From Oscillospiraceae bacterium (GTDB lineage: Bacteria; Bacillota; Clostridia; Oscillospirales; Ruminococcaceae), in assembly GCA_017460955.1 (NCBI GenBank), contig JAFTZY010000081.1, positions 1 through 49,946 of the forward strand: a stretch of 49,946 nt of DNA, in the 5' to 3' direction. The notes under the pieces were generated by a model. That model saw only the letters and a program-made list of their open reading frames with translations, searched no databases and was not told where the DNA came from. Within the stretch, counting starts at the first letter, position 1. The number at the start of each line of letters is the position of its first letter. The translations under genes and the position numbers were made by a program. Of the stretch, positions 42,076 through 49,946 are shown piece by piece.

Positions 42076-44379
42076 ATGAGGAAACACAAGCGCACCGCAG
42101 CCGCGCTTGCCGTATGCATGCTGGCCGCAGCATGGCCCGCACTTACCGCCAAGGCAGCGTCCTGCTATTCCTTTGACAAGGACAGCGACACCCTGACGCT
42201 CTTTGGCAATGTCAGCCTGGATGAGGTCGGGCAAATACAGAAAAGGGAGATCATCCGCACGGTCGTTGCCGCGCCCGGGACGGTGCTCCCGGAGGACTGC
42301 TCCGGTCTCTTTGCGGGGAATTCCTATGTGCATGAGATCGACCTGCATCATGCCGATACCGCAAAGGTGAAGGATATGTCCGGCATGTTCAAAGACTGCG
42401 GCGATCTTACCTTGCTCGATGTCACGGGCTTTGACACCTCAAATGTCACGGATATGAGCGGCATGTTCGATGGGTGCGACGATCTTACCTTGCTCGATGT
42501 CACGGGCTTTGATACCTCAAAGGTCACGGACATGCGCGGGATGTTCGATGGCTGCAGGGGCCTTACCGTGCTCGATGTCTCAGGCTTTGACACCTCGGCT
42601 GTTACCGATATGCACGGCATGTTCCACGGCTGCGATCAGCTTACCGCGCTTGATGTCTCGGGCTTTGACACCTCGGGCGTGACGGATATGGGTGAGATGT
42701 TCTGGGCCTGTCTGGAGCTGCCCGCCCTTGATCTTACGGGCTTTGACACCTCGAACGTGACGAATATGGCCGGGATGTTCTTCCGGTGCGAAAAGCTTAT
42801 CTCGCTCGATCTCACGGGCTTTGATACGCGGGGCGTGACGGATATGAGCGAGATGTTCCGGGCGTGTCCGGCGCTCTCCGCACTCGATGTCTCGGGCTTT
42901 GATACGCGGAGCGTGACGGATATGCATGAAATGTTCCAGCGCTGCGAGGGGCTCACTGTGCTCGATGTCTCGGGCTTTGACACCTCGGGTGTGACGGACA
43001 TGCGCGAGATGTTCGACGGCTGTCGGTCGGCCGGTACACTCGATGTCTCCGGCTTTGATACCTCGAATGTAACGAATATGAAGAGCATGTTCGCGGGCGT
43101 TCAGGGACCGCTCGACCTGTCCGGCTTTGACACCGCGAAGGTCACGGATATGCGCGGCATGTTCCACGGCTGCGATCAGCTTACCGCGCTCGATGTCTCG
43201 GGCTTTGACACCTCGGGCGTAACGGATATGAGCTACATGTTCTGCGGCTGTGCCATGCTCGGGACGCTCGACCTGAGCACCTTCGATACCTCGCAGGTCG
43301 AGAGCATGGACAGCACGTTCGCGGGCTGCTCACAGCTCAAAGCGCTCGATATATCGGGCTTTGACACCTCGAAGGTGGGCATGATGCAGGGCATGTTCGA
43401 CGGCTGCTCCTCGCTTGAAGCACTCGATGTCTCCGGCCTTGACACCTCGAGTGCCGACAGCATGAACATCATGTTCAGGGACTGCTCCTCGCTCAGAGCG
43501 CTTGATGTCTCCGGCTTTGACACACATCATGCCGGGAATATGAACTTCATGTTCTCGGGCTGCACCTCGCTCGAGGCGCTCGATGTCTCGGGCTTTGACA
43601 CCTCACAGGCGTTCTGGATCGCCGGCATGTTCGAGAACTGTCCCCTGCTCGAGGAGATCGATGTCTCCGGCTTTGACACGGGGGATGTCACGGCCGTTGC
43701 CGGCATGTTCGAGGGCTGCACATCGCTGCGTTCGGTCGATGTTTCGGGCTTTGACCTCTCAAATGCCGAGAGCCTCGAGCGCATGTTCAAGGGCTGCGCC
43801 TCGCTCGAGGAGATCGATGTCTCGGGTCTTGACACGCAGTATGTATGGACTATGGACAGCCTGTTCGAGGGCTGCACCTCACTTCGGGAGATCGATCTGT
43901 CGGGCTTTGACACGTCGGGGCTCATGAGCATGAACAGCATGTTCAAGGACTGCACGGGGCTCGAATCCATTACCCTCGGCAAGCGCTTTCCCCGCGTGAC
44001 CGAGGAGATGGCGCTGGACAACACCCGTGCATGGGCGCTTGACACGGCCCCGGACCTGCGCGTGAGCGGGGACGGGAGCACAGCCGTATTTGTCAATGTG
44101 GGCCAGAACACCTACATCCGCACGGACAGCACGGAGGATGCGCACACGCCCGGCGATGTCACAGGGGACGGCACGGTCAACGCCAACGATGCGGCGCGCA
44201 TCCTGATGGCCGCTGCCCGGATCGGTGCCAAGCGTCCCTCCGGCCTGACCGAGGCGCAGGCGCTTGCCGCGAACGTGAACAGCGACCATGCTGTCAATGC
44301 CAACGATGCGTCCATCGTCCTGCGCTATGCCGCCGCCATCGGTGCCAAGCGCCAGGTGGAGCTGACGGATTTCATCTGA
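42076..44379 (+). CDS. Secreted DUF285-type repeat protein (21 repeats) with C-terminal dockerin
   Basis: 767 aa. Signal peptide about 1-28 (MRKHKRTAAALAVCMLAAAWP..AKAAS). After a short cap come 21 tandem ~25-aa BspA/DUF285 units (LDVSGFDTSxVTDMxxMFxGC), about residues 90-625. The C-terminal ~75 residues are a dockerin-like module (DVTGDGTVNAND and NVNSDHAVNAND) nearly identical to that of the 403-aa paralogue. AAGGAGG 8 nt before ATG 42076. It lies directly after cellobiose phosphorylase and may share its transcript. Likely a surface or cellulosomal binding protein. Confidence 0.9.
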   Translation: MRKHKRTAAALAVCMLAAAWPALTAKAASCYSFDKDSDTLTLFGNVSLDEVGQIQKREIIRTVVAAPGTVLPEDCSGLFAGNSYVHEIDLHHADTAKVKDMSGMFKDCGDLTLLDVTGFDTSNVTDMSGMFDGCDDLTLLDVTGFDTSKVTDMRGMFDGCRGLTVLDVSGFDTSAVTDMHGMFHGCDQLTALDVSGFDTSGVTDMGEMFWACLELPALDLTGFDTSNVTNMAGMFFRCEKLISLDLTGFDTRGVTDMSEMFRACPALSALDVSGFDTRSVTDMHEMFQRCEGLTVLDVSGFDTSGVTDMREMFDGCRSAGTLDVSGFDTSNVTNMKSMFAGVQGPLDLSGFDTAKVTDMRGMFHGCDQLTALDVSGFDTSGVTDMSYMFCGCAMLGTLDLSTFDTSQVESMDSTFAGCSQLKALDISGFDTSKVGMMQGMFDGCSSLEALDVSGLDTSSADSMNIMFRDCSSLRALDVSGFDTHHAGNMNFMFSGCTSLEALDVSGFDTSQAFWIAGMFENCPLLEEIDVSGFDTGDVTAVAGMFEGCTSLRSVDVSGFDLSNAESLERMFKGCASLEEIDVSGLDTQYVWTMDSLFEGCTSLREIDLSGFDTSGLMSMNSMFKDCTGLESITLGKRFPRVTEEMALDNTRAWALDTAPDLRVSGDGSTAVFVNVGQNTYIRTDSTEDAHTPGDVTGDGTVNANDAARILMAAARIGAKRPSGLTEAQALAANVNSDHAVNANDASIVLRYAAAIGAKRQVELTDFI

Positions 44380-45037: not shown

Positions 45038-45068
45038 AAACGCTCCCCCAAAAAGGGAGCGTTTTTTA
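45038..45068. terminator. Terminator shared by spoVT and the SLOG gene
   Basis: AAACGCTCCC / GGGAGCGTTT followed by TTTAT on the plus strand; it overlaps the SLOG stop codon. Confidence 0.9.
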
Positions 45069-45545
45069 TATCTCCTGCACCTCGATCCCGCGCAGGCGGG
45101 CAAGCGTGAGAATGTACGGCGTTTCCTGCGGCAGAGCGTACTGCACATAGCCCTGTTTGTCGTAGAACAGCAGCAGCGTGCTGCGTGAGAGCATTGCCTC
45201 ATCGGCCCGGTGATAGCTCTCCGGGTCGTCCGGAGGCGCCGCAAAGGTCACGGAATCCGCCTGCGCATGGACGCTGTAGTACTCGTTGCGCAGGCCCTCC
45301 GTCCAGCGCCGTGCCTGCTCCTCGTGCGGGCAGACCAGGTGCAGGCGCACGGGGAAGCGCTTCTTCATGCGCATCACGATCCGTGCCGTCCACAGCGGGA
45401 TCCCCGCCGATGCGTTGACGCAGAAATCCGTGTACCCCTCTTTGTGCAGCGCTAAAAGCAAAAGCGCGATCCGCTGCTGCACGATCTGGGCCTGCGTGTC
45501 GTTCAGGAACAGCTCCTCCCCGCACGATGCGACCGCAGCTGTCAT
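45066..45545 (-). CDS. SLOG-family (DUF1273/YpsA-like) nucleotide-binding protein
   Basis: 159 aa, cytoplasmic. Rossmann-like SLOG fold: YTDFCVNASAGIPLWTARIVMRMKKRFP matches the ligand loop and following helix of YpsA/DUF1273 proteins; LHLVCPHEEQARRW and YHRADEAMLSRSTLLLFYD match the later conserved parts. SLOG domains bind nucleotides or related ligands and were linked on computational grounds to nucleotide-based conflict systems. GGAGGTG upstream of ATG 45545. Divergent from the CARF-HEPN gene with back-to-back promoters (45581-45669), so a sensor or modulator role in that cassette is plausible; an unrelated housekeeping role is the alternative. Confidence 0.75.
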   Translation of the reverse strand: MTAAVASCGEELFLNDTQAQIVQQRIALLLLALHKEGYTDFCVNASAGIPLWTARIVMRMKKRFPVRLHLVCPHEEQARRWTEGLRNEYYSVHAQADSVTFAAPPDDPESYHRADEAMLSRSTLLLFYDKQGYVQYALPQETPYILTLARLRGIEVQEI

Positions 45546-45609: not shown

Positions 45610-45640
45610 TTTATTTGTGAAGTAGAGCGTCTCCTGCCGC

Positions 45641-45669
45641 TTGCATTTGTGCGGGAGATGTGCTATAAT
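45641..45669 (+). promoter_or_regulatory. CARF-HEPN/mCpol operon promoter
   Basis: TTGCAT (45641-45646), 17-bp spacer, TATAAT (45664-45669); 31 bp separate its -35 from that of the divergent SLOG gene. It looks constitutive; no dyad stands out. Confidence 0.85.
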
Positions 45670-45723
45670 ACGGATAGGATACGGTGTGCATGACGCACCG
45701 GGATGAAGAAAGGATGGGAATGT

Positions 45724-46716
45724 ATGAAAGCTCTGTATGTGATCGGTAATGTCAAGCTTGCGACGGTCAGGGCGGTGGCGGAGGCGATCCGTGACACCGT
45801 CGGAGGCACCGGCCGCTTTTCCAAATTGTTCATCATCTCCACGGATGCCTCCCACAACTGCTACCGTGAGCAGGAGGCACTGTATTTTGCGATCCTCGGG
45901 GAAATGCGTGCGGAGGAGGTCATCATTGATATCCGCCGGCCGGATGCACAGAAGCGTCTGGCGGACATCTTCGAGGAGTTTGATGACCGCTTTGTGGATC
46001 TGACCAACGGCCAGAAGCCCATTGCCTCCATGCTGTACATGGCAGCCAGCCTGTGCGGGATCAATGAGATGTACTACCTCATGCATAACGACGATGACAC
46101 CAGCAGCTACATCCGCATGGACCGTTTCCGGGAGACCAATGCCTTTGCCGCATTCTCCTTCTATGACCTCATCTACTACAGCGAGGATCTCGACAGCATC
46201 TTCCCGCCCGCGCTGCTCGTGGAGGGTGCCTTCCTGCACAAGACCTATCATGAGCTGAAATCGGCGATCTCGGATTTTTTTGTTCACCAGAATTTCAAGA
46301 ACGCCATCCTCTCGGCGACCATCGGCAACGAAGCCGTCATCGCCGAGGTGTTCCGGTACTTTGAGAACGATCCGGATGCCCGCCGGTTTGCCGATGCGCA
46401 CAATGTCTACTTCGGCCAGCGCGACCCGGTCGGTGTCATCAGCTACCTGTTCAAGGCGTACCTTAGCAATGTCGGCAGGGAGCAAGGCCCCCGGATGCAG
46501 GCGCTGTCCTACATTCCCGCCCTGCATGATGTGCCGGGACTGATGTCGCTTTTGCGGGAATTCCGTAACATGGCTGCACATTACTCGATGCACAACCATT
46601 ATCTGACCTTCACCGAGGCAAGGCTTGTCATCAATGCCAGCCTGGAGCTGTACCGTACCCTGCAGCGCCATGCGCCGCTCTGGGAGCGGCTGGCACAGCG
46701 CTCTGCACGCGTGTAA
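45724..46716 (+). CDS. CARF-like domain fused to HEPN ribonuclease
   Basis: 330 aa, cytoplasmic. The N-terminal part (about 1-125) looks like a CARF/Rossmann ligand domain: ALYVIGNVKLATV, LFIISTDASHN, then VDLTNGQKPIASMLYMAASLCG (91-112), which matches the CARF strand-turn-helix. The C-terminal part is helical and carries the HEPN RNase motif R281-N-x3-H286 (FRNMAAH). By analogy with Csm6/Csx1 it should be an RNase switched by a cyclic nucleotide. Start at MKALYVIG (ATG 45724), AAAGGATGGG upstream; a 7-codon longer frame covers that site. mCpol follows after 11 bp with its ribosome site over the stop codon. No cas gene is near. Confidence 0.82.
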   Translation: MKALYVIGNVKLATVRAVAEAIRDTVGGTGRFSKLFIISTDASHNCYREQEALYFAILGEMRAEEVIIDIRRPDAQKRLADIFEEFDDRFVDLTNGQKPIASMLYMAASLCGINEMYYLMHNDDDTSSYIRMDRFRETNAFAAFSFYDLIYYSEDLDSIFPPALLVEGAFLHKTYHELKSAISDFFVHQNFKNAILSATIGNEAVIAEVFRYFENDPDARRFADAHNVYFGQRDPVGVISYLFKAYLSNVGREQGPRMQALSYIPALHDVPGLMSLLREFRNMAAHYSMHNHYLTFTEARLVINASLELYRTLQRHAPLWERLAQRSARV

Positions 46717-46727
46717 GGAGCGGACGG

Positions 46728-47114
46728 ATGAACAGTGTGTTTTTTGCAATGGACGGGGATGCCATCGGCAAGCGGCTTGAACAGTATATCTTCACCTCGG
46801 ATACAGCGGGACTGCATACACTCAGTCTTGGCATCCAGGAGGATGTCCGCACAGTCAGTGCCCTGCTCCGGGCGCAGGGCGGCACCGTCCATATGGAGGG
46901 CGGCGACAATCTTCTGGGGGAATGTACGCAGGATGCTGCCGCCGTGCTGCTCCGGGCGGTCACACAGATCAATGCGCACCGGGCATACCATTTCTCCGTC
47001 GGGATCGCCGATTCCATGATCGGCGCATACATGGCGCTCAAATATGCCAAGCTCTCCGGGAAAGCCGCCGTGCGGTATGTCCGGGAGGGCTTTGAGGAGG
47101 TCCCGCTGCCGTAG
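46728..47114 (+). CDS. Minimal CRISPR-type polymerase (mCpol), predicted cyclic-nucleotide synthase
   Basis: 128 aa, a bare palm domain. Metal-binding D9-G-D11 lies in FFAMDGDAIGKRLE, and G58-G59-D60-N61 (EGGDNLL) matches the GGDD/GGDEF turn of Cas10 and diguanylate cyclases. FSVGIADSMIGAYMALKYAKLSGK forms the last strand and helix. Family knowledge: mCpol proteins are stand-alone relatives of the Cas10 polymerase and make cyclic nucleotides in Panoptes defence. AAGGAG overlaps the upstream stop and sits 7 nt before ATG, so synthase and effector are translated together. The product (cyclic di- or oligonucleotide) cannot be told from sequence. Confidence 0.85.
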   Translation: MNSVFFAMDGDAIGKRLEQYIFTSDTAGLHTLSLGIQEDVRTVSALLRAQGGTVHMEGGDNLLGECTQDAAAVLLRAVTQINAHRAYHFSVGIADSMIGAYMALKYAKLSGKAAVRYVREGFEEVPLP

Positions 47115-47131: not shown

Positions 47132-47175
47132 CCCCCTCTCTTCCATGCTAAGGAAGGGAGGGGGCGTGTTGTTTT
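47132..47175 (+). terminator. Terminator of the mCpol operon
   Basis: CCCCCTCTCTTCC / GGAAGGGAGGGGG followed by GTTGTTTTA. Confidence 0.82.
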
Positions 47176-47737
47176 ACGGGGCAGGTGCGTCCTCCTCGAG
47201 CTTCTTGCCGGAGAGGGTCGCCTGGTAGGAGAGGATGGCGGTATCGCCGCCGACCTGTGTTTCAAAGACAACGGTGCCGGTCTCGTCCTTGCTGACATTG
47301 AGCACCATATCGCCCACAATGTCGGCTTCGGTGAGGGATCTGAGCGTCAGCCTGCGCTCGCCCGCATCCCAGGTGCCGGTGTACTTAAACGGCGTATCCT
47401 CCACACCGTCATAGACAATGGAGACATCGTAGAGCGTCGAGGGTGCCTCCTGTGCCGTCACGGTCATGAAGCCGTGGCCCTGTGCGCCGGCCATACTGTC
47501 CATCGCCGAATCGTAGTATTAGAAGCGTGCGCTTACGCGCCCGCTATTTTGTGACGGGCGCACGGTAAAATGCCCCGAAACGTCTACCTGTGCCGATCCG
47601 CTCGTCAGCGTGATGCTGAGGACCCCGCCGATGAGCGCGCCCTCCCCGTCGCTGCCCACGGCGGCATCGAGCGTCATGCTGCCCGAGCCGCCCTCACCGA
47701 GCTCAAGCGTATGCAGGGGACGATAGTCCCCCCGCAA
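47174..47737 (-). pseudogene. Decayed gene fragment with in-frame stop
   Basis: Two reading frames on the minus strand, 47519-47737 and 47174-47503, are in the same phase and separated only by a TAA (47519-47521) and four codons. Read together they give about 187 residues of a beta-rich, probably secreted protein (..GGSGSMTLDAAVGSD.. and ..TLYDVSIVYDGVEDTPFKYTGTW..). There is no ribosome site or signal peptide at the 5' end, which runs straight into the terminator of the HAD gene. The stop lies in a short sequence also found at 843-858, which suggests a small insertion. Two separate small genes are the less likely alternative. Confidence 0.6.
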
Positions 47738-47792
47738 AGAAAAAAGAAAAAAGCCCCCTCCCCTCCCGCGTCAGCGGGAGAGGGAGGGGGGT
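47738..47792 (-). terminator. Terminator of the HAD gene
   Basis: Minus strand CCCCCTCCCTCTCCCGC-TGAC-GCGGGAGGGGAGGGGG then CTTTTTTCTTTTTT. Near-copy of the terminator at 732-778. Confidence 0.92.
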
Positions 47793-47819
47793 GGGCGGCC
47801 TTCGCACGCCCGGCCCCTT

Positions 47820-49825: not shown

Positions 49826-49855
49826 AGAATGGCACTCCTTTCCTGGGGAGAGTTC

Positions 49856-49946
49856 TCCCCACCCCAACCCCCGCCCCCAGGGGCGGGGGCTGTTTTGCAG
49901 GGGACTGCGTCCCCTGCACCCCCGGCTTGCAGGCTGCCGGGGCGGC
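49856..49946. repeat. GC-rich palindromic sequence at right edge
   Basis: CCCCCGCCCC-CA-GGGGCGGGGG followed by CTGTTTT, then GCAGGGGAC-TGC-GTCCCCTGC. Same kind of module as at 2118-2326 and inside the L elements. Cut by the window end. Confidence 0.6.

Follow-up and report, generated by a model that had tools for sequence, protein, structure and literature searches.

Ancillary ribonucleases (RNases) of type III CRISPR (clustered regularly interspaced short palindromic repeats) systems such as Csx1 and Csm6, in which a CARF domain is combined with a HEPN domain, are defined by their activation through the cyclic oligoadenylates cA4 or cA6, as stated in the part of PMC11229360 that treats them. 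In Panoptes (optSE), the minimal CRISPR polymerase (mCpol) OptS is encoded together with the membrane effector OptE of the S-2TM-beta type; there, the polymerase is described as constitutively active, consistent with the lack of a Cas10 regulatory region, and its product represses the toxin (PMC12657230). Operons of mCpol and CARF-2TM proteins account for 40% of mCpol genes, while mCpol genes are less frequently found in operons with, or fused to, HEPN RNases, for which positive versus negative regulation by nucleotides is stated to be open (PMC12657218, in the passages on these operons). No experimental study of an mCpol-HEPN unit was found in a full-text literature search. Here, such a unit is described from a window of 49,946 nucleotides of Oscillospiraceae bacterium (assembly GCA_017460955.1, contig JAFTZY010000081.1, positions 1 to 49,946, forward strand), where the gene of a CARF-HEPN effector is followed by an mCpol gene. 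The unit is real and, judged by its motifs, intact; it is conserved as well as rare, and its kind is already on record in the PADLOC database and in the Panoptes paper (PMC12657218). On balance, and with due reserve, it is best read as a two-gene, toxin-antitoxin-like phage-defence unit following the logic of Panoptes, with a soluble RNase replacing the membrane effector. Its features are as follows.

45724..46716, + strand: effector gene, CARF-HEPN protein of 330 amino acids (open reading frame, AlphaFold2 model, Csm6 alignments, four homologues)
45724..46134, + strand: CARF domain, residues 1 to about 137
45994..46020, + strand: CARF motif VDLTNGQKP, V91-P99 (sequence; conservation in 5/5 effectors; weak hhalign alignments)
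46564..46581, + strand: HEPN motif R281-N282-x3-H286 (invariant in 5/5 effectors)
46717..46720, + strand: GGAG directly 3' of the effector TAA stop, resembling a ribosome-binding site, within the 11-bp gap
46728..47114, + strand: mCpol, 128 amino acids (Pfam PF18182, NCBIfam NF033576, PDB 9mnr OptS)
46752..46760, + strand: mCpol D9-G10-D11, metal site (D9 aligned with KpOptS D6)
46899..46910, + strand: mCpol G58-G59-D60-N61 (D60 aligned with KpOptS D57)
45641..45669, + strand: possible promoter, TTGCAT, 17 nt, TGC-TATAAT with extended -10 (putative, found by eye)
47132..47164, + strand: intrinsic-terminator-like hairpin of 13 pairs, 17 bp past the mCpol stop

The synthase was assigned with curated profiles. 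Its 128 residues score 57.7 bits against Pfam PF18182 (E 1.8e-15; curated cut-off 26.4) and 65.1 bits against NCBIfam NF033576 (E 8.8e-18; curated cut-off 40), and the protein matches the crystallised Panoptes OptS (PDB 9mnr) with E 1.3e-4 at equal lengths. In an alignment including the OptS chain, D9 and D60 fall on D6 and D57 of KpOptS, which are given as catalytic in the relevant part of PMC12657218. Since five of the seven aligned mCpol rows had been chosen by DGD and GGDN, their agreement at these motifs is no independent evidence; the spaced pattern DGDxxG-43 aa-GGDN itself occurs once in the window and in 0/100 shuffles. In a tree of 16 mCpol and Cas10 rows, which is without locus L059 (a Cas10 locus described below) as its palm was missed by the motif used, the five mCpols linked to CARF-HEPN effectors fall into one group with weak support (65/10).

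For the effector, the AlphaFold2 model (predicted local distance difference test score 79.4) displays a strand-helix N-terminal part and an all-helical C-terminal part (helices 138-325). The former has the Rossmann-like fold of the CARF superfamily, and the R-x4-6-H motif typical of HEPN proteins lies within the latter, as R281-N-x3-H286. Csm6 chains align with residues 1-321 or 1-325 of the model at root-mean-square deviations of 15-16 Å, in a search with the whole model whose list mostly tests residues 1-186. Across the window effector and its four homologues, V91, D92, L93, N95, G96 and K98 of the CARF motif are invariant, as are R281, N282, A285 and H286, a motif by which the effectors had not been picked. 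In hhalign comparisons of the effector alignment with two T. thermophilus CARF proteins, VDLTNGQKP coincides with their DLTxGTK, in weak alignments with E 0.037 and 0.0039 and probabilities of 1.4 and 8.6 (control E 0.42). A phmmer search of the window effector and of the homologue from locus L044 against PDB sequences gave no match, and a profile of the effector alignment matched only protein THR6 (E 0.0018), which is taken for designed. A Pfam scan of the five effectors yielded scattered weak matches, the fitting ones being HEPN_RiboL-PSP (0.001) and CARF_Card1 (0.02) in one member each and the non-fitting ones FtsH_ext (0.00089) in one and PUA_2 (0.0061) in two. Taken together, the identity of the domains as a CARF-HEPN effector, thus a predicted RNase, and an mCpol is close to certain. 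The original prediction, made from the sequence, had named two open reading frames of 330 and 128 amino acids 11 bp apart, the motifs VDLTNGQKP, R-N-x3-H, D-G-D and GGDN, and CARF, HEPN and mCpol as their domains; the genes were found at the positions given and the motifs at 91-99, R281/N282/H286, D9-D11 and 58-61, and the domain calls hold by the model, the Csm6 alignments, the homologues and the profile scores. An in-frame ATG at 45703 would extend the effector to 337 amino acids, and the open reading frames of the four homologues start at the residue matching 45724.

The two genes look like one transcription unit, because the 11-bp gap carries the GGAG site, a promoter-like site lies upstream and a terminator-like hairpin follows downstream. 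The possible promoter, with a weak -35 and an extended -10 element, precedes the effector start by about 55 bp and is absent from the list of a consensus scanner; terminator-like hairpins number four in the region against a shuffled mean of 1.9 (standard deviation 1.4). Positions 45640-45670, which span this site, have 31-bp matches of 90% in two sister genomes at marginal E values (7e-4 and 8e-4; G024 and G037).

Relatives of the pair were found by scanning genome contigs for exact DNA matches to the pattern DGDx(NTN codon)G-43 aa-GGDN. The pattern fixes DGD, G14, GGDN and their spacing, so that agreement of the rows at these positions arises by construction and the counts are uninformative on mCpols generally. 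It returned 20 stretches, five of which encode mCpols by reading (L031, L034, L036, L044 and L049) and 15 do not; other scans of viral contigs and genome contigs for pattern-based relatives returned nothing. Immediately upstream of the mCpol, a homologous effector of 326-333 amino acids is encoded in four of these five (L031, L034, L036 and L044), all from Clostridia (two Clostridiales metagenome-assembled genomes (MAGs), a Roseburia MAG and Parablautia muri), while the Chloroflexi mCpol L049 is without an upstream effector homologue. Hence, the pairing proposed originally for the window recurs in four relatives, and effector and mCpol stand together in five loci, the window included. The four homologues share 32-34% identity with the window effector. 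Identities of effectors and mCpols covary (Pearson 0.97 and Spearman 0.73 across 10 pairs that are not independent). Between L034 and L036, nonsynonymous (dN) and synonymous (dS) divergence amount to 0.18 and 2.56 for the effector and 0.21 and 1.42 for mCpol, with dS near saturation; the pair is under purifying selection between these two relatives, and comparisons with L031 yielded no dS. In tblastn searches, neither protein of the window had relatives among plasmids and phages, and two homologous effectors gave nothing against plasmids.

The original prediction had further called the unit a candidate new variant. In the sense of an unrecorded kind, this did not stand: PADLOC contains a model CARF_HEPN_mCpol (PDLC01967, 471 positions) with identical domains in identical order. 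The family reportedly has its origin in the classification of CARF proteins by Makarova et al. 2020. The window mCpol matches PDLC01967 with E 4.3e-7 at profile positions 351-460 (PADLOC models were used without a stated cut-off), and the window effector is unlisted for this model at E 1, as are the effectors of L031, L034 and L036 at E 0.05. In contrast to this fused model, the window, L031, L034 and L036 carry the domains as two genes, in the window separated by a stop codon and the 11-bp gap. Locus L044 connects both forms. Residues 7-313 of its effector match PDLC01967 positions 7-317 (E 1.2e-4), its mCpol matches positions 353-459 (E 6e-15), and in a six-frame search positions 7 to 459 are matched along one and the same frame, broken by a single TAG. 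As the L044 effector and mCpol match the model in order, the split operon is of the same kind as the fused family, and mCpol-HEPN operons are likewise mentioned in the part of PMC12657218 cited above. At L044 4508-4525, a GGAG overlaps the TAG stop, followed by ATT at the position where the L031 and L034 mCpols have methionine; a GGAG-like site of this sort was seen in L044 but not in the gaps of L031 or L036. L044 therefore consists either of two coupled genes, the second with a rare start, or of a near-fusion. It may be a natural form intermediate between split and fused, or a MAG artefact.

Several mCpols found along the way belong to other settings. In L105 (5373-6742; genome G1570, of the phylum of the Chloroflexi genome G1115), an mCpol gene comes first and is followed by a probable CARF-2TM effector in two pieces, by reading. 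Among 11 viral pattern matches from IMG/VR, eight encode mCpol by reading (L019, L020, L021, L022, L025, L027, L028 and L029), some as near-copies, and five of these (L019, L021, L025, L028 and L029) pass the PF18182 cut-off with E 2e-18 to 2e-21. The viral mCpols sit in frames of 300-960 amino acids, in L028 in one 960-residue frame with an ATP-dependent DNA ligase (PF01068), and for the five above the cut-off no PHROG family matched at 0.01. Such virus-encoded mCpols could serve counter-defence or be linked to replication.

Within the lineage, the pair is rare. When 38 genomes of the genus, including the window's own, were searched with a 5.5-kb stretch (at most 7 candidates scored per genome), no match listed elsewhere overlapped the pair, diverged copies escaping such DNA matching, and both genes flanking the pair recur among these genomes. 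PF18182 exceeded its cut-off in 2/100 relatives (37 of the genus besides the own genome among them), namely in the window and in G009, whose protein reads as Cas10, and in 5/394 genomes of the order, where the four besides the window's lie in frames of 330-517 amino acids. The PF18182 matches L002 and L014 read as Cas10-like. The window effector was matched in one of 391 class genomes, its own, and the effector-alignment profile in one of 397 genomes of the P. muri family, P. muri itself. No effector without mCpol was met in these 391 and 397 genomes, among which few effector-bearing ones were met at all. Nine stretches from eight sister genomes held no tblastn match to YpsA (see below), effector or mCpol at 1e-5; eight of them carry SpoVT followed by other genes, three carry DUF2229, and both genes occur in L094 and L095, at distances of about 5 and 15 kb. 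The flanks are thus not adjacent in the sister genomes examined, and no clean empty site is named. Such scattered presence would fit gain and loss of a defence unit. The very sporadic distribution could also be expected of a degenerate or non-defence unit, e.g., one regulating RNA decay under stress via a cyclic nucleotide, and two further observations point that way: no other defence gene was recognised beside the pair among five window neighbours profiled, and the neighbouring genes for YpsA and SpoVT are of a household type. This explanation is nonetheless improbable, as the effector motifs are conserved, purifying selection acts between two relatives, and a patchy distribution, here without a listed match in the 37 other genomes of the genus, is usual for defence genes; phage defence is the likely purpose.

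The YpsA/SLOG-family gene (PF06908, E 5.8e-19) adjoins the operon divergently at 45066-45545 (- strand). As a third component it was rejected, since none was recognised next to the pair when L031, L034, L036 and L044 were read. Further upstream, positions 42076-44379 encode, by reading, a surface protein of the BspA-like type, in which about 20 repeats, each of 26 residues (78 nt), are accompanied by a dockerin-like pair at the C-terminus. Downstream, about 47716-47799 has six further copies elsewhere in the genome, at 90-94% and on different contigs, and about 49847-49896 has short matches in several sister species; both are probably dispersed repeats.

The unit had also been described originally as CRISPR-independent, with no array in the 50 kb. 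A repeat scan of the window listed three families, none of them CRISPR-like, in agreement with the latter. In the window genome, no type III Cas10 exceeded the cut-offs of PF18182 and PF22335, the only matches being the mCpol and, below the cut-off, a protein reading as GGDEF; this part of the claim stands, while a type I-C-like CRISPR-Cas operon by reading, including Cas1 and a 14-copy array, is present on another contig (C49, L109 9985-18870). As the genome (G000) is 90.8% complete, absences at the genome level are no proof. Among the five pair-bearing genomes, Cas1 was found in two and a clear Cas10 in one, the source of L044 (G1114), where it belongs to what reads as a type III-A operon (L059). 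The latter genome lends some weight to the idea of a stray effector, an ancillary RNase of the type III kind serving a Cas10 elsewhere, with the adjacent mCpol being incidental or tuning it. This is very improbable, however: in the window genome and three others, PF22335 matched only mCpols or the GGDEF-like protein (its matches in the L031, L034, L036 and L049 genomes coincide with their mCpols), and the pair occurs together in five loci and is known as a fused family. While Csm6 chains align along both domains and the R-x4-6-H HEPN and DLTxGxK-like CARF motifs are shared with Csx1/Csm6, the window unit differs from these in that its genome is without Cas10 over cut-off and its partner is an mCpol.

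It is very likely that a nucleotide made by this mCpol controls this effector, and the question is of which sign this control would be. As in Panoptes, a bare mCpol with aligned catalytic aspartates is combined in two genes with an effector of a nucleotide-binding type, the effector here being CARF-HEPN instead of the membrane protein OptE; with the mCpol and CARF-2TM operons the unit shares an mCpol adjoining a CARF sensor, the output there being a 2TM membrane segment. In the preferred mechanism, mCpol, having neither a sensor nor a regulatory part, would make a cyclic (di)nucleotide constantly, which would bind the CARF domain of the RNase and keep the HEPN active site off. Removal of the nucleotide by a phage enzyme or sponge would release the RNase, which would then cleave RNA and stop growth before the phage spreads. 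That control is inhibitory is somewhat favoured, because the mCpol is bare and sensor-less and because of the two published Panoptes studies (PMC12657230 and PMC12657218). Alternatively, mCpol, alone or with an infection cue, might make cyclic oligoadenylate only during infection and thereby switch the RNase on as in type III CRISPR. This is possible but doubtful. The activation that defines Csx1 and Csm6 (PMC11229360, in the part cited), the common CARF-HEPN layout of the effector with its alignment to Csm6 along both domains, and an mCpol GGDN closer to the GGDD of Cas10 than is the AADG of KpOptS all speak for it, and the section of PMC12657218 cited leaves this option open; the original prediction had left the same choice between activation and holding off. 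Against it, the mCpol is without a sensing part, no third gene was seen in the unit, which the terminator-like hairpin at 47132 would close, and constitutive activity is what has been described to date for bare mCpols (PMC12657230 and PMC12657218).

Inhibition by a constant nucleotide has to be weighed against several observations to its disadvantage. All characterised CARF-HEPN RNases known to us are activated, and none is inhibited, by their ligand. The effector gene precedes the synthase gene, which is the reverse of optSE, and the window effector is called weakly by sequence profiles alone. While S33, corresponding to KpOptS S30, is kept in 7/7 aligned mCpol rows, the position of the adenine-contacting KpOptS N34 holds Q, Q, K, K and T among the five mCpols that accompany CARF-HEPN effectors (roles of both residues as given in part of PMC12657218); because N34 is not kept, the predicted product may differ from 2',3'-c-di-AMP. 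Finally, the cyclic oligonucleotide-based antiphage signalling system (CBASS) is a frequent but not obligatory companion of mCpol systems (53%), as reported in the passage of PMC12657218 on this point. In contrast to Panoptes, SMODS (PF18144) gave 0 matches in the window genome, and in the six genomes searched, i.e., the five pair-bearing ones and the effector-less L049 genome, only P. muri had one, which covers part of the model (positions 2-100 of 164) within a 102-residue frame. The published co-occurrence is thus not clearly seen here (SMODS in 1/5 pair-bearing genomes), a weak point given MAG incompleteness and n=5. With all this considered, the chances are about even that the unit performs CRISPR-independent, RNase-armed inverse signalling, in which the CARF-HEPN RNase would be kept inactive by a constantly made mCpol nucleotide and set free once phage removes that nucleotide.

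Whether mCpol signals act positively or negatively beyond classical Panoptes is named as an open question in PMC12657218, and small split operons such as this one, with effector and synthase as separate genes, make it testable with two plasmids. If inhibition is true, the unit would contain the first CARF effector known to us on which the ligand acts as an inhibitor and not as an activator, and an architecture familiar from RNases triggered by an alarm, CARF-HEPN, would work in reverse. Because CBASS was mostly not found in pair-bearing genomes, the target guarded by the unit would then be something else, unless the unit serves as a tripwire on its own. Guarding would thereby be extended to RNA cleavage as an output and to genomes without detected CBASS.
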